From a virus: a stretch of DNA of 25,673 bases. Positions 6,897-10,810 of this stretch are shown in pieces; the stretch's first letter is position 1, and the number at the start of each line of letters is the position of its first letter. The DNA is taken from IMG/VR virus record IMGVR_UViG_3300021139_000132, positions 1 to 25,673 of that record; one strand, given 5' to 3'. A program made the translations under genes and the position numbers. The notes beneath the pieces were generated by a model. The model searched no databases. It was not told the DNA's origin and worked only from the letters and a program-made list of their open reading frames with translations.

Positions 6897-7407
6897 AACA
6901 AAAATAGACGATTTACTAGACAAAACAACTAAAAAAGGTTTTAAACCTAGTGAACGTTATCGTTTTGGTTGGGTAGATCCCCGAGGATTTTTTACAGGAG
7001 AAGTTATGTCTACACTTACAATTTCACAAGAACAAAAAGAAGCAGAGTTATTTCAGAAGTTGCTTGAGACTAAAGTAATAGAGATGGCTGCTGTAGGGAG
7101 TAGAGTTACTTGCGTTCCTGCTCCCACTGACACTGACGAAGACATACTCATTCTTACAGATGACGCTAGATTGTTTATGGGTGATGCTATTGAAGCAGGA
7201 TTTGCTAACTGTGGATTTTATGTAGGCTGCGATTTTATTTCACTAAGAAAAGGAGAGATCAATCTTATAGTAACTGAAGAAAGTAGTTTCTATAACAAAT
7301 TCATTCTTGCTACTCACGTATGTAAGGCATTAAACTTGCTCGATAAAGAACAGCGAATAACTGTCTTTCAAGCAATTCTTTATGGAAAGGAGTATGGAAA
7401 ACCATGA
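6886..7407 (+). CDS. Phage nucleotidyltransferase-fold protein
   Basis: A 173-aa protein. AVGSRVTCVPAPTDTDEDILIL (about residues 69-90) carries a Gly-Ser pair followed by a Thr-Asp-Thr-Asp cluster, as in the nucleotidyltransferase (pol-beta-like) fold. The C-terminal part, with FYNKFILATHV and then NLLDKEQRI and AILYGK, matches small phage proteins annotated as nucleotidyltransferase. It sits just upstream of DNA polymerase and overlaps it by 4 nt, so a role in nucleic-acid or nucleotide metabolism is plausible but unproven. ATG 6886 is coupled to the preceding gene. A second in-frame ATG at 7006 has a much better ribosome binding site and would give a 133-aa product that keeps the entire NTase core. 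Confidence 0.65.
   Translation: MTSETKIDDLLDKTTKKGFKPSERYRFGWVDPRGFFTGEVMSTLTISQEQKEAELFQKLLETKVIEMAAVGSRVTCVPAPTDTDEDILILTDDARLFMGDAIEAGFANCGFYVGCDFISLRKGEINLIVTEESSFYNKFILATHVCKALNLLDKEQRITVFQAILYGKEYGKP
6996..7008 (+). promoter_or_regulatory. Strong internal ribosome binding site and alternate start
   Basis: AGGAG (6996-7000) stands 5 nt before an ATG at 7006 that is in frame with the nucleotidyltransferase-like gene. It is a better initiation site than the one at 6886. The gene may therefore start here, or make two products that differ by a 40-residue N-terminal extension. Confidence 0.55.
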
Positions 7408-9341
7408 CCATACCTAGATTTATAGGCATAGATGTCGAGACGACAATGAATGCCAACGAGGATATAGGACTAGCTCATCCTATGCACCCGAACAACTACG
7501 TAGTAGCTTTTGGGTACACAGGAGGTACTAGAACACACGTAACTTACAGTAAGGATGATTTTATCAATGCAATGAAGTTGCAAGATAAACAAGACGTTAT
7601 TTGTGGACACAACATATCCTTTGATTTAATGTATTTGTATAAAGAACATGGTGTTCTTAAGAACATATTACAAAGCTACAGGATATGGGACACACAATTA
7701 GCTGAATACATACTAACAGCGCAGCAATCTAAATTCTCAAGCTTAGATGAACTGTGCATCAAGTATGGTTTGCCTATCAAAGATGACAAGATTAAAAAGT
7801 ATTTTGAAGCTGGTTTAGGTTCTGACAAGATACCTGAGAGTGAGCTAACACCTTACTTGGTACAGGACGTAGACAACGTTGTAGCAATAGCAGAGATACA
7901 GTACAAGTTAGCTGTAGAGAGCAACCAACTAAAACTCATAGAGTCTCAGATGGAAGCACTACATGCAACAACAGAGATGATGTTTAACGGTTTACACATA
8001 GACCAGAAACGTCTAGACGACTACACAGTGGAAGTGGTTAATGAGTATGTAGAGTGCAAGCTAGACTTAGAAGAGTTAGCAGGTGCAGACATAGAAGACA
8101 TTAACAGTCCTAAGCAGTGGTCACAGTTGTTCTTTGGTGGAACTAAGAAGATCAAAGTTAAAGAAGAAGTAGGCGTATACAAGAATGGTAAGACCAAGTA
8201 CAAGCTTATGGACAAAACTTTGACTATCAAGCCATTGATAGCTTATGTTCCAGATCCAGAGAAAGTATCTGAGAAAACAGGACAAGTGTCTGTAGATGAT
8301 TCCGTGCTTAACGATATGCTTAAACATACCTTTGACAAAAGAGCTATACAGCTTATCGAAGGATTGTTGAAGTACAGGACATTGTCTAAGCAGCTATCTA
8401 CGTATGTCCAGGGCCTTAGCAAGCATGTTATTAGTAACTTTATACATGGCAAGTTAAACCACACAGCGACAGTCACAGGTAGGTTGTCTTCAACTAATCC
8501 TAACCTTCAGAACATTAGTAATAACCCTATAAAGCAGATCTTTACATCTAGGTTTGCAGGTGGTTATATTGTGGAGGTTGACTTTAATCAGCTAGAAGTT
8601 GTTGCTCTTGCTCACGTGACTAAAGACAAGCAGCTTATCAAGGACATATCAAGTGGAATTGATATTCACAGTGCTTTGTATGAGTCTATGTTTGGTCGTA
8701 AACCAACCAAAGAAGAACGTAAGCCATTCAAATCTAGGACGTTTCAATTGATTTATGGTGCAGGAGCTAAAGCAATCAGCAAACAAGCAGGATGTAGCTT
8801 AGATGAGGCTAAGAAGTTTGTAGATGTGTTCTATACACGTTACCCACAAGTAGCAGCTTGGCACACAGACTTTGCAAGAAGAGTAGAAGTAATGTCTCAT
8901 TATTCTACCGATCCAGCAACAGGTTTAAGAGAGAAAGTTAAATCTTACGTACTACAAACAGAGACTGGAAGAAAGTTTTTGTTTAAAGAGTATCACAGTG
9001 ATAGTTCTTGGTCTTCTAAGACTTACAATTTTAGTCCAACAGAGATGAAGAATTATCCTATTCAAGGATTAGCTACTGGCGATATAGTACCAATGATGTT
9101 GGGAATTATCTTTAGAAAGCTAATAATGAGCAGTGGAGTTTGTATAGTTAACACTATTCATGATTCCATTATGTTTGACGTACATCCAATGCAATTGGAT
9201 TATTTTTTAGAGGAGATAAGAGAGACACTAAAGAACACACACAAGTATTTTGAGAGTATTTTTGGGACACCTCTGGCTCTGAAGCTCAATGCAGGAGCAT
9301 CAGTAGGTGATGATTGGTTTAACATGAAAGAATTAACATGA
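7404..9341 (+). CDS. DNA polymerase, family A, with 3'-5' exonuclease
   Basis: A 645-aa replicative polymerase; AAAGGAG lies at 7386-7392. The proofreading domain has Exo I IDVET (Asp10, Glu12), Exo II GHNISFD, and Exo III YLVQDVDNV. In the polymerase domain, TGRLSSTNPNLQNI precedes motif A (VDFNQLEVV, Asp393). Motif B follows the O-helix pattern RKPFKSRTFQLIYG, with Lys443 and Phe447 at the positions of E. coli Pol I Lys758 and Phe762. Motif C is IHDSIMFD (Asp587). Both catalytic Asp residues are present. Motif A DFNQ instead of DYSQ, and HDS instead of HDE, mark a divergent branch. It is the replicase working with the split primase/helicase; the gene is ATGA-coupled to its neighbours. Confidence 0.95.
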   Translation: MTIPRFIGIDVETTMNANEDIGLAHPMHPNNYVVAFGYTGGTRTHVTYSKDDFINAMKLQDKQDVICGHNISFDLMYLYKEHGVLKNILQSYRIWDTQLAEYILTAQQSKFSSLDELCIKYGLPIKDDKIKKYFEAGLGSDKIPESELTPYLVQDVDNVVAIAEIQYKLAVESNQLKLIESQMEALHATTEMMFNGLHIDQKRLDDYTVEVVNEYVECKLDLEELAGADIEDINSPKQWSQLFFGGTKKIKVKEEVGVYKNGKTKYKLMDKTLTIKPLIAYVPDPEKVSEKTGQVSVDDSVLNDMLKHTFDKRAIQLIEGLLKYRTLSKQLSTYVQGLSKHVISNFIHGKLNHTATVTGRLSSTNPNLQNISNNPIKQIFTSRFAGGYIVEVDFNQLEVVALAHVTKDKQLIKDISSGIDIHSALYESMFGRKPTKEERKPFKSRTFQLIYGAGAKAISKQAGCSLDEAKKFVDVFYTRYPQVAAWHTDFARRVEVMSHYSTDPATGLREKVKSYVLQTETGRKFLFKEYHSDSSWSSKTYNFSPTEMKNYPIQGLATGDIVPMMLGIIFRKLIMSSGVCIVNTIHDSIMFDVHPMQLDYFLEEIRETLKNTHKYFESIFGTPLALKLNAGASVGDDWFNMKELT

Positions 9342-9853
9342 GCATGATGACAGGTACAGTGGAATCAGTATCCACAAAAGATGTAAACACTAAGTTTGGT
9401 ACTAAACCTACTTACTCGATGAAAGTAAATGGAACTTGGGTTAAGTGTGGTTTCAAAGATCCTAAAGTAGAAGTTGGTTATGAAGTTGAGTTTGACGGTG
9501 TTTCTGGTACATATGGCGTAGAGACTAAAGCTGTTAACGTTCTTAGTAAAGGAAGTGGTACACCACCTCCTGCTACTGGAGGAGCTTCTGTAGGCTCTCC
9601 TAAAGCTTCTTATGGTGGTTATAAAGAGAAGGTATTTCCTATTCCTGCTTTGCACGGTGATAGAGCTATTATTCGTCAGAATGCTTTAGCTAGAGCTACT
9701 GATCTTTATATTGCTGCTAGGGGCGGTAAGCCATTTGATCTAGAAGAAGGTAATCTAGACTTTGTTGTTAGGCTTGCTCGTAAGTTTGAAGCTTATACAG
9801 CAGGTGATTTAGATATGGCTGAAGCTATAGCTGAAGCTGGAACACAAGAGTAA
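9338..9853 (+). CDS. Single-stranded DNA-binding-like protein (OB-fold plus helical tail)
   Basis: A 171-aa protein whose ATG overlaps the polymerase stop. Residues ~5-70 alternate short beta-like segments (GTVESVSTKD, YSMKVNGTWVKCGF, YEVEFDGVSG), consistent with an OB fold, then a Gly/Pro/Ser linker (~71-95). A helical C-terminal domain follows, with DRAIIRQNALARATDLY, seen in phage proteins annotated as SSB-like. Unlike T7 gp2.5 the extreme C-terminus is only mildly acidic. It would coat single-stranded DNA during replication. Position right after the polymerase supports this, but the call rests on pattern and context rather than a diagnostic motif. Confidence 0.55.
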   Translation: MSMMTGTVESVSTKDVNTKFGTKPTYSMKVNGTWVKCGFKDPKVEVGYEVEFDGVSGTYGVETKAVNVLSKGSGTPPPATGGASVGSPKASYGGYKEKVFPIPALHGDRAIIRQNALARATDLYIAARGGKPFDLEEGNLDFVVRLARKFEAYTAGDLDMAEAIAEAGTQE

Positions 9854-9858
9854 GTTTA

Positions 9859-9952
9859 TGGGGAGTTGTTAAGCCAGCACTCAAGGATGTCAATGTAGGA
9901 AATTTTCTGGCTTTCTGTCCTACCTAGTTAAAGACCAAATTGAGACTCCCCA
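9859..9952 (+). ncRNA. Candidate structured RNA with pseudoknot
   Basis: A 116-nt gap between genes (9854-9969) holds three helices. The outer stem TGGGGAGT (9859-9866) pairs with ACTCCCCA (9945-9952). Inside it, AAGCCAG (9871-9877) pairs with CTGGCTT (9907-9913), and GTAGGA (9895-9900) pairs with TCCTAC (9918-9923). The two inner helices interleave, which is an H-type pseudoknot topology with connecting segments of 17, 6 and 4 nt, or else two mutually exclusive hairpins. No gene fits here. The downstream 58-aa gene has no visible Shine-Dalgarno, so the element could control its translation or that of the exonuclease, act as a riboswitch-like or processed RNA, or be a replication site. I do not recognise it as a known family. 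Confidence 0.45.
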
Positions 9953-9969
9953 CCTTTATTAAAACAACC

Positions 9970-10146
9970 ATGAAATTAAAAACATACAAAGTATCGTTTA
10001 CCTTAACAATAGTAGATGATAAAAACAATTTACCAAACAGTTGGTTACCTAACACTATCTTTGAACAGATCTTTCCCTCAGAGGGAGAATCTGTTGAAGG
10101 ATTTACATTTACAGAACTAAAGGATGACAATGAAAGCATTGATTGA
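9970..10146 (+). CDS. Small hypothetical protein, 58 aa
   Basis: ATG 9970 opens a 58-aa frame with a beta-like N-terminus (KLKTYKVSFTLTIVDD), a Pro/Asn-rich middle and an acidic tail. There is no Shine-Dalgarno upstream; the preceding sequence is the 3' flank of the pseudoknot-capable element. The 3' end overlaps the start of the exonuclease gene by 17 nt, which argues that it is a real, coupled gene. An in-frame TTG at 9940 falls between the pseudoknot helices and is less likely. No family is recognised. Confidence 0.55.
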   Translation: MKLKTYKVSFTLTIVDDKNNLPNSWLPNTIFEQIFPSEGESVEGFTFTELKDDNESID

Positions 10147-10810
10147 TGGAGACATCATTGTCTACCGCAGTGCAGCATCAACTAAAGACGATGAAGAATC
10201 TTGGATAGCTCAATCAAGAGCTGACCAAATGATGCAAGACATCTTAGCTGATACACAAGCAACATCTTACGAAGTTTATCTGACAGGTTCAGGTAACTTC
10301 AGAAGAGAGATAGCACCCAGCTACAAGGCTAACAGACCTGACGACAGACCAGTACATTGGCAAGCTGTTAGAGAGTTCCTAGTAACACATCACAAAGCTA
10401 AGATTATCAACGGATATGAAGCAGATGATGAGATGGGTATACAACAAGACAAATCAGGTGTATCTACAGTTATATGCAGCATAGACAAAGATCTACTTCA
10501 GATCCCAGGTAAACACTATAACTTTGTAAAGAAAGTGTTTCAAGAAGTAACACCAGATCAAGGTCTTAAGTTTCTTTACCTACAAAGTCTTATTGGAGAT
10601 AGGTCTGACAACATCCTAGGTGTAGCTGGTATAGGACCAGTAAAGGCAGAGCGAGCATTAGCAGAGCTGTTGCCTGAAGAGTGGTACGACAAGTGCCGTG
10701 AACTCTATAACGATGACGAAAGATTTCATCTCAATATGAAGTTGTTATACATTTGGCAAAAGCCTAACGATAGTTGGGAACCTCCTAACAAGGAACTAAT
10801 CAATGATTAA
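10130..10810 (+). CDS. 5'-3' exonuclease (FEN/T7 gp6-like)
   Basis: A 226-aa nuclease. I take ATG 10130, 5 nt after AAGGA (10120-10124), rather than ATG 10124, which overlaps that site; the difference is two residues. The PIN/FEN-like fold is marked by LIDGDIIVYR (Asp6, Asp8), YEADDEMG (Glu97, Asp99, Asp100) and SIDKDLLQ (Asp119, Asp121), then GDRSDNILGVAGIGPVKA (about 156-173). The last carries metal-binding Asp157/Asp160 and the helix-3-turn-helix that grips DNA. It removes RNA primers and digests host DNA in T7-like phages. It lies downstream of the polymerase and SSB-like genes and upstream of endonuclease I. Confidence 0.9.
   Translation: MKALIDGDIIVYRSAASTKDDEESWIAQSRADQMMQDILADTQATSYEVYLTGSGNFRREIAPSYKANRPDDRPVHWQAVREFLVTHHKAKIINGYEADDEMGIQQDKSGVSTVICSIDKDLLQIPGKHYNFVKKVFQEVTPDQGLKFLYLQSLIGDRSDNILGVAGIGPVKAERALAELLPEEWYDKCRELYNDDERFHLNMKLLYIWQKPNDSWEPPNKELIND

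Follow-up and report, generated by a model that had tools for sequence, protein, structure and literature searches.

Covariation supports an undescribed family of pseudoknotted phage RNAs exchanged at a fixed genomic site

The tRNA clusters of phages also encode stable RNAs that are not tRNAs, such as the species 1 and 2 RNAs of T4, and among the large ornate RNAs of lakes and phages GOLLD reaches about 800 nt. Structured RNA is also found within phage messages: the mRNA of T4 gene 32 carries a pseudoknot that serves as a translational operator and is bound by the phage single-stranded DNA-binding protein (SSB) gp32 (PMC535899, PMC3014915), and T4 genes 25 and 38 have split ribosome-binding sites with structured RNA between the two parts (PMC3014915).

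Here we describe an RNA of about 95 nt, named X, that is encoded in a gap of 116 nt (9854-9969) in a virus record of 25,673 bases, the whole of which we refer to as the window. The gp32 operator is the nearest described functional parallel to X; the gene 32 pseudoknots of T4, T2 and RB69 share with it a phage origin, an SSB gene context and an RNA pseudoknot. However, the gene 32 operator measures about 28 nt, against about 95 nt with five helices in X, and it lies in the ssb 5' leader, whereas X lies 3' of ssb genes (of the SSB-like gene in the window) and is also found at sites without ssb; X thus does not have the leader position that defines a T4-type gene 32 operator. The split sites of genes 25 and 38 are like X in being intergenic RNA structures able in principle to bring signals closer together, but they are small, some 20-27 nt, whereas X is built around a conserved core of several helices and in most cases does not part a Shine-Dalgarno from its start codon. 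The species 1 and 2 RNAs resemble X, by description only, in being structured, in lying beside tRNAs and in occurring once per phage, although X is mostly found outside tRNA clusters. GOLLD and the other large ornate RNAs of lakes and phages (PMC2864571, PMC12286853) are structured, non-coding and of phage or freshwater origin like X, but GOLLD is far longer, and X and the module arrays that accompany it match no Rfam model. In the window's gene family X resembles intrinsic terminators in that a T-run mostly comes after its stem P1, and in relatives plain terminators occupy its site; unlike in a terminator, the loop of X is filled by a conserved pseudoknotted domain of about 80 nt, and most other copies lack the T-run.

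Genomic setting and fold of X

Upstream of X in the window are a family A DNA polymerase gene (7404-9341) and a plus-strand gene (9338..9853) belonging to phrog_18140, for which no function is assigned. The initial annotation called the product of the latter SSB-like, which holds in part: its structure model has an N-terminal OB-like beta domain and there is a weak fold match, but no PDB match was obtained below E = 0.03, so that its nature as an SSB is partly supported. The gap itself is non-coding, with stops in most frames. It is followed by a small plus-strand ORF of 58 aa (9970..10146), which is missing from many relatives and whose ATG at 9970 indeed lacks a Shine-Dalgarno, and then by a gene for a 5'-3' exonuclease (10124..10810, plus strand; PF02739, phrog_107). 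No close DNA relative of the window was found among named phages, where the sole partial matches, to a Roseobacter phage and a Manatee Spring phage, cover part of the exonuclease gene. Lake-type contigs among its relatives suggest that the window phage lives in fresh water.

The three exact complementary pairs of 8, 7 and 6 nt that had been reported in the gap are all present: TGGGGAGT (9859-9866) with ACTCCCCA (9945-9952), which belongs to helix P1, AAGCCAG (9871-9877) with CTGGCTT (9907-9913), which is P3, and GTAGGA (9895-9900) with TCCTAC (9918-9923), which is P4. The two shorter pairs interleave in pseudoknot order within the 8-nt pair, as had also been described. When the 116 nt are shuffled with dinucleotides preserved, the same exact 8/7/6-nt arrangement arises in 7 of 20,000 sequences, and the interleaved pattern is seen again in the window at 776-897, in and near a small ORF and possibly by chance, so that the pairs alone are suggestive and do not amount to proof. 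The nested folding energy of the gap is ordinary (z = +0.6); minimum-free-energy folding would thus miss X and is uninformative for a pseudoknot.

X as a whole spans 9857..9957 on the plus strand, where it scores 108.3 bits with covariance model R1, built from an alignment that included the window's own X, and it is the sole copy in the window. Its outer stem P1 surrounds a stack of P2, P5 and P4, and the seven-pair helix P3 links the region just inside P1 to the loop of the P4 hairpin, giving the strand order 5' P1, P3, P2, P5, P4 and then 3' P3, P4, P5, P2, P1. In P1, TGGGGAGTT (9859..9867) pairs with GACTCCCCA (9944..9952), and all seven counted pairs change on both sides among relatives. 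The same is true of all six pairs of P4 (9895..9900 with 9918..9923), whose hairpin loop holds the 3' strand of P3 (9907..9913, partner of 9871..9877). P2 pairs TCAA (9881..9884) with TTGA (9940..9943) and shows compensatory changes from C-G to U-A and from G-C to A-U, while in P5, formed by GTC (9889..9891) and GAC (9933..9935), two of the three pairs change on both sides. P2 and P5 had been overlooked at first, as had a lone co-varying pair of G9868 with C9878 (9868..9878; columns 12-22 of the alignment), which flanks the 5' strand of P3 and is 100% paired among relatives, with GC in 117 and AU in 4. Conserved letters around the core are GGATG, UUUU, UC and CCAAAU, although those in the search patterns (AGGATG, TTTT and others) are conserved partly through the choice of matches. 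Thus GGATG (9885..9889), mostly unpaired and with its last G beginning P5, is invariant in the alignments in part because of the patterns used, and the unpaired UUUU (9903..9906) that precedes the 3' strand of P3 was required by the later patterns. All of these features are on the plus strand. Some copies of X have an extra hairpin between P4 and P5.

Covariation and distribution of the X family

Relatives of X were gathered by gene homology and with patterns that ignored or forbade the pseudoknot letters. Protein scans returned 146 loci with both the SSB-like and the exonuclease genes, comprising 79 distinct intergenic sequences; many of the intergenic sequences carry the X motif, and in the rest there is a plain hairpin terminator, a different sequence or additional ORFs. 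After a DNA core-pattern search, the set comprised 131 distinct X sequences. In a first alignment of 121 sequences, 98.7% of the cells are paired and two-sided changes are seen at 17 of 27 pairs; covariation scores 0.562, compared with 0.200 for shuffled and at most 0.116 for slid alignments. However, the search pattern had fixed the letters of P3, so that this alignment is unable to test that helix and its apparent invariance there is an artefact. Two further scans, each forbidding the usual P3 letter at one position, yielded 36 copies, of which 33 keep a perfect 7-bp P3 with both strands changed together (AAGTCAG/CTGACTT, AAGACAG/CTGTCTT, AGGCAGA/TCTGCCT, AAGCAGA/TCTGCTT and AACAGTA/TACTGTT); the other three belong to a single lineage and have one P3 mismatch. 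Across the combined set, which numbers 81 diverse copies, standard pairs make up 98.5% of the base-pair cells and the score rises to 0.708, compared with 0.239 shuffled and at most 0.123 slid, with 23 of 27 pairs changing on both sides, a type of count that kinship among the sequences inflates here and elsewhere. P3, the crossing helix, is 99.8% paired in this set and changes on both sides at six of its seven pairs. These results strongly support the functional pseudoknot proposed in the initial annotation, by the very check that it had called for, and uncompensated substitution in the arms, which it had named as counter-evidence, is not the pattern observed. As judged from this covariation, the pseudoknot of X is real, has a fixed fold and belongs to an undescribed family of phage RNAs.

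The core-pattern scan found X on at least 119 viral contigs, and it is kept by matching mutations in well over a hundred phages, both related and unrelated. In a bacterial genome collection covering 84,980 species the pattern occurs on two contigs, both of them in MAGs, and a model search through the family of the Rhodoferax MAG found X in one of 401 genomes, which is that MAG itself; on these counts we rejected a host-chromosome RNA. Among 39 long records searched with model R1, 33 have exactly one X and six have none, proportions that are not a frequency because the records were mostly chosen for carrying X. The single copy in all 33 carriers does not fit a MITE, a REP or another multicopy repeat. 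One locus (L232), found by pattern and not matched by R1, provides a useful negative control.

No family of Rfam 15 reaches its gathering score in the window, and a lax Rfam search of the window's X gave 13.4 bits (E 6.5) at best. Across 33 X loci Rfam recognized only tRNA and one Betaproteobacteria-1 RNA, none of them over X. The latter (RF02932; L219:4146-4263, minus strand) lies about 170 nt downstream of X on a phage contig. By blastn with E up to 1, no X was found in 50,697 cultured-phage records or in 72,556 plasmids, using one typical query for each collection, which a divergent copy could escape, and cultured phages holding other RNA modules gave no credible match to X with filters off. 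In the open literature searched, on structured phage RNAs and on its core letters, we found no description of X. X is a new RNA family, where newness refers to the family and not to its mechanism. It combines unusually strong covariation, including that of the pseudoknot helix, with absence from the catalogues searched, and, being small, well delimited and marked by conserved core letters, it can be made, probed and tested directly.

Neighbouring genes and exchange at a fixed site

The genes around X differ among phages. In group A the gene directly before X encodes an ssDNA-binding or OB-like protein from one of several families (the window's, Enc34-type PF10991, DUF669 and one with an RRRR tail), and mostly an exonuclease or DNA polymerase gene comes after X. 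The SSB assignment is partly supported, by Pfam for the Enc34 and DUF669 types and by weak fold matches for the window's and RRRR-tail types, the model of the RRRR-tail family resembling SSB weakly; the DUF669 proteins we take to be ssDNA-binding. In group B, X is found near genes for the small or large terminase subunit or for HNH, RusA-like (by eye), DPS-like or methylase proteins, and a ParB-methylase is also among its neighbours. X ends an array in several group B phages, where another conserved module precedes it; in L203 and L182 the arrays that it closes consist of other RNA modules without ORFs. L250 has X between tRNA-His (ends 1012) and tRNA-Tyr (starts 1120). A heptamer, AGTTGCC, is found 70 nt upstream of X in many loci and frequently makes up the 3' arm of a small hairpin; 27 of the 131 distinct copies have it upstream against 0.7 expected, with kinship ignored.

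X has been repeatedly exchanged with a plain hairpin at a fixed site. On an exonuclease tree of 70 relatives its presence needs 11 changes, at least eight of which are forced by well-supported branches. Two loci with the plain hairpin (L100 and L106) and three with three different X alleles (L102, L103 and L135) have flanks that are almost letter-for-letter identical, and the X of L062 is replaced in its sister L147 by another structured module.

Possible roles of X and the accompanying RNA modules

Our leading guess, for which we would claim somewhat less than an even chance, is that X is an exchangeable phage RNA working in trans. Its single copy, varied neighbours, exchange at a fixed site and near restriction to phages favour a trans-acting RNA made from a longer transcript, as does its placement between tRNAs or as the last unit of RNA arrays that lack ORFs. 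X would be co-transcribed with neighbouring genes, tRNAs or RNA modules and then be set free or shielded as a stable RNA closed off by P1. During infection it may serve as an accessory RNA that acts on a protein or RNP of the host or of the phage, and the neighbouring gene would then matter merely as a source of transcription. A purely trans role does not explain the preference of X for sites behind genes for ssDNA-binding proteins.

The main rival, which we regard as possible though doubtful, is a cis-acting 3'-UTR or intercistronic element, in which P1 and the T-run form a terminator that depends on folding of the X core. The folding would perhaps be set by a ligand or by the upstream ssDNA-binding protein, and X would tune read-through from ssb into the exonuclease or polymerase gene or shield the 3' end of the ssb mRNA; the SSB of T4, gp32, does bind an mRNA pseudoknot (PMC535899, PMC3014915). 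X often begins 1-6 nt past the upstream stop codon, and its exact site is occupied in near-identical X-less relatives by plain intrinsic terminators, with the shared stem GGGGGC/GCTCCC or GCCCCC. A T-run of at least four follows P1 in 83% of the copies in the window's gene family, although the window's own X has only CACCTTTATT where the T-run of an intrinsic terminator would be, and this frequency together with the terminator site favours a cis role within that family. However, in the two remaining context groups only 18% and 33% of the copies have the T-run, X also ends RNA arrays, sits between tRNAs and adjoins terminase genes, and not one neighbouring gene is conserved throughout. The two roles can be compatible, with P1 as both terminator and 3' seal. 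A riboswitch, for which a consistent set of downstream genes would be expected, was rejected because the genes after X vary widely.

It is improbable that X is a self-cleaving ribozyme parting the ssb and exonuclease messages. Small ribozymes have compact pseudoknotted folds with highly conserved unpaired core letters, as X does at its phage intergenic site, but X has no match in Rfam, which includes known self-cleaving ribozymes, no known catalytic core was recognized in it, and no conserved cleavage-like junction is present outside P1. We give an equally low probability to a translation switch, in which P1 would hide or present GGGGAG as a Shine-Dalgarno, or the fold would bring an upstream Shine-Dalgarno near the start codon, split ribosome-binding sites being present in T4 (PMC3014915). 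Some relatives do have start codons 5-20 nt past P1 without a Shine-Dalgarno, and AAGGAG stands immediately before P1 in L192 and L199. However, the letters of P1 are not conserved and are often not Shine-Dalgarno-like, its 5' strand being GTGTTGGG, GTAAGGAC, GTAGAAGC, GTTGGAAT or CACACAG in relatives, and therefore the earlier suggestion that the GGGGAG strand gates or recruits ribosomes finds no support as a general function; in many relatives, moreover, an ordinary Shine-Dalgarno follows X or there is no start nearby. Least probable of all is a DNA-level element that exploits its complementarity as ssDNA, such as an origin of replication or a site of packaging or recombination, for which the one copy per genome, the nearby replication or terminase genes and the repeated exchange could speak, but pairing that includes G-U wobbles, in a pseudoknot of five helices whose loops are conserved, is typical of RNA, X also lies between tRNAs and in RNA-module arrays, and close relatives swap it for a plain hairpin.

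X leads to arrays of other undescribed phage RNA modules, including some in cultured Klebsiella phages that are open to study. Together with modules E, F, G and M, X could represent a set of interchangeable RNA domains, forming an undescribed trans-acting RNA system of phages that is possibly directed against host machinery or defence, a reading we put forward tentatively and well below an even chance. Such domains would be carried singly behind replication genes or strung in arrays beside tRNAs, by freshwater and other phages.

Module E, a second undescribed RNA module, has the form CCAACACGCATGGGGATTG-N30..90-CAGTCCCCAGCCGTGTTGG with a variable loop, and its inner stem varies on both sides (GGAGATTG/CAGTCTCC, GAGGATTG/CAGTCCTC). 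It is found at L203:968-1918 (minus strand) and L182:1020-1290 and in L164, L168, L170, L183, L227, L270 and L157. It frequently stands immediately ahead of X and is in some cases arranged in tandem; the 3' strand of E and the 5' strand of P1 in X overlap. Module F, GTGAATGCGCAGGCTGATGCGC ... GCCGGAGATCAGCACCGGCCACCA, is found at L276:1100-1230, L277:1118-1230 and L279:1208-1295 and in L203 and L182. It is common to these phages and cultured Klebsiella and Salmonella phages and adjoins tRNA genes in some; the copy in phage UPM 2146 is part of a stretch of about 2.3 kb without annotated genes that resembles an RNA array. A lax Rfam search over modules F, E and G in L203 gave nothing credible. 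Module M, GGGGAAAGCRGATGC ... GCAGCGAGTACCCC, replaces X in L147 (3310 region) and is seen beside E or X in other loci (L183, L227 and L231).
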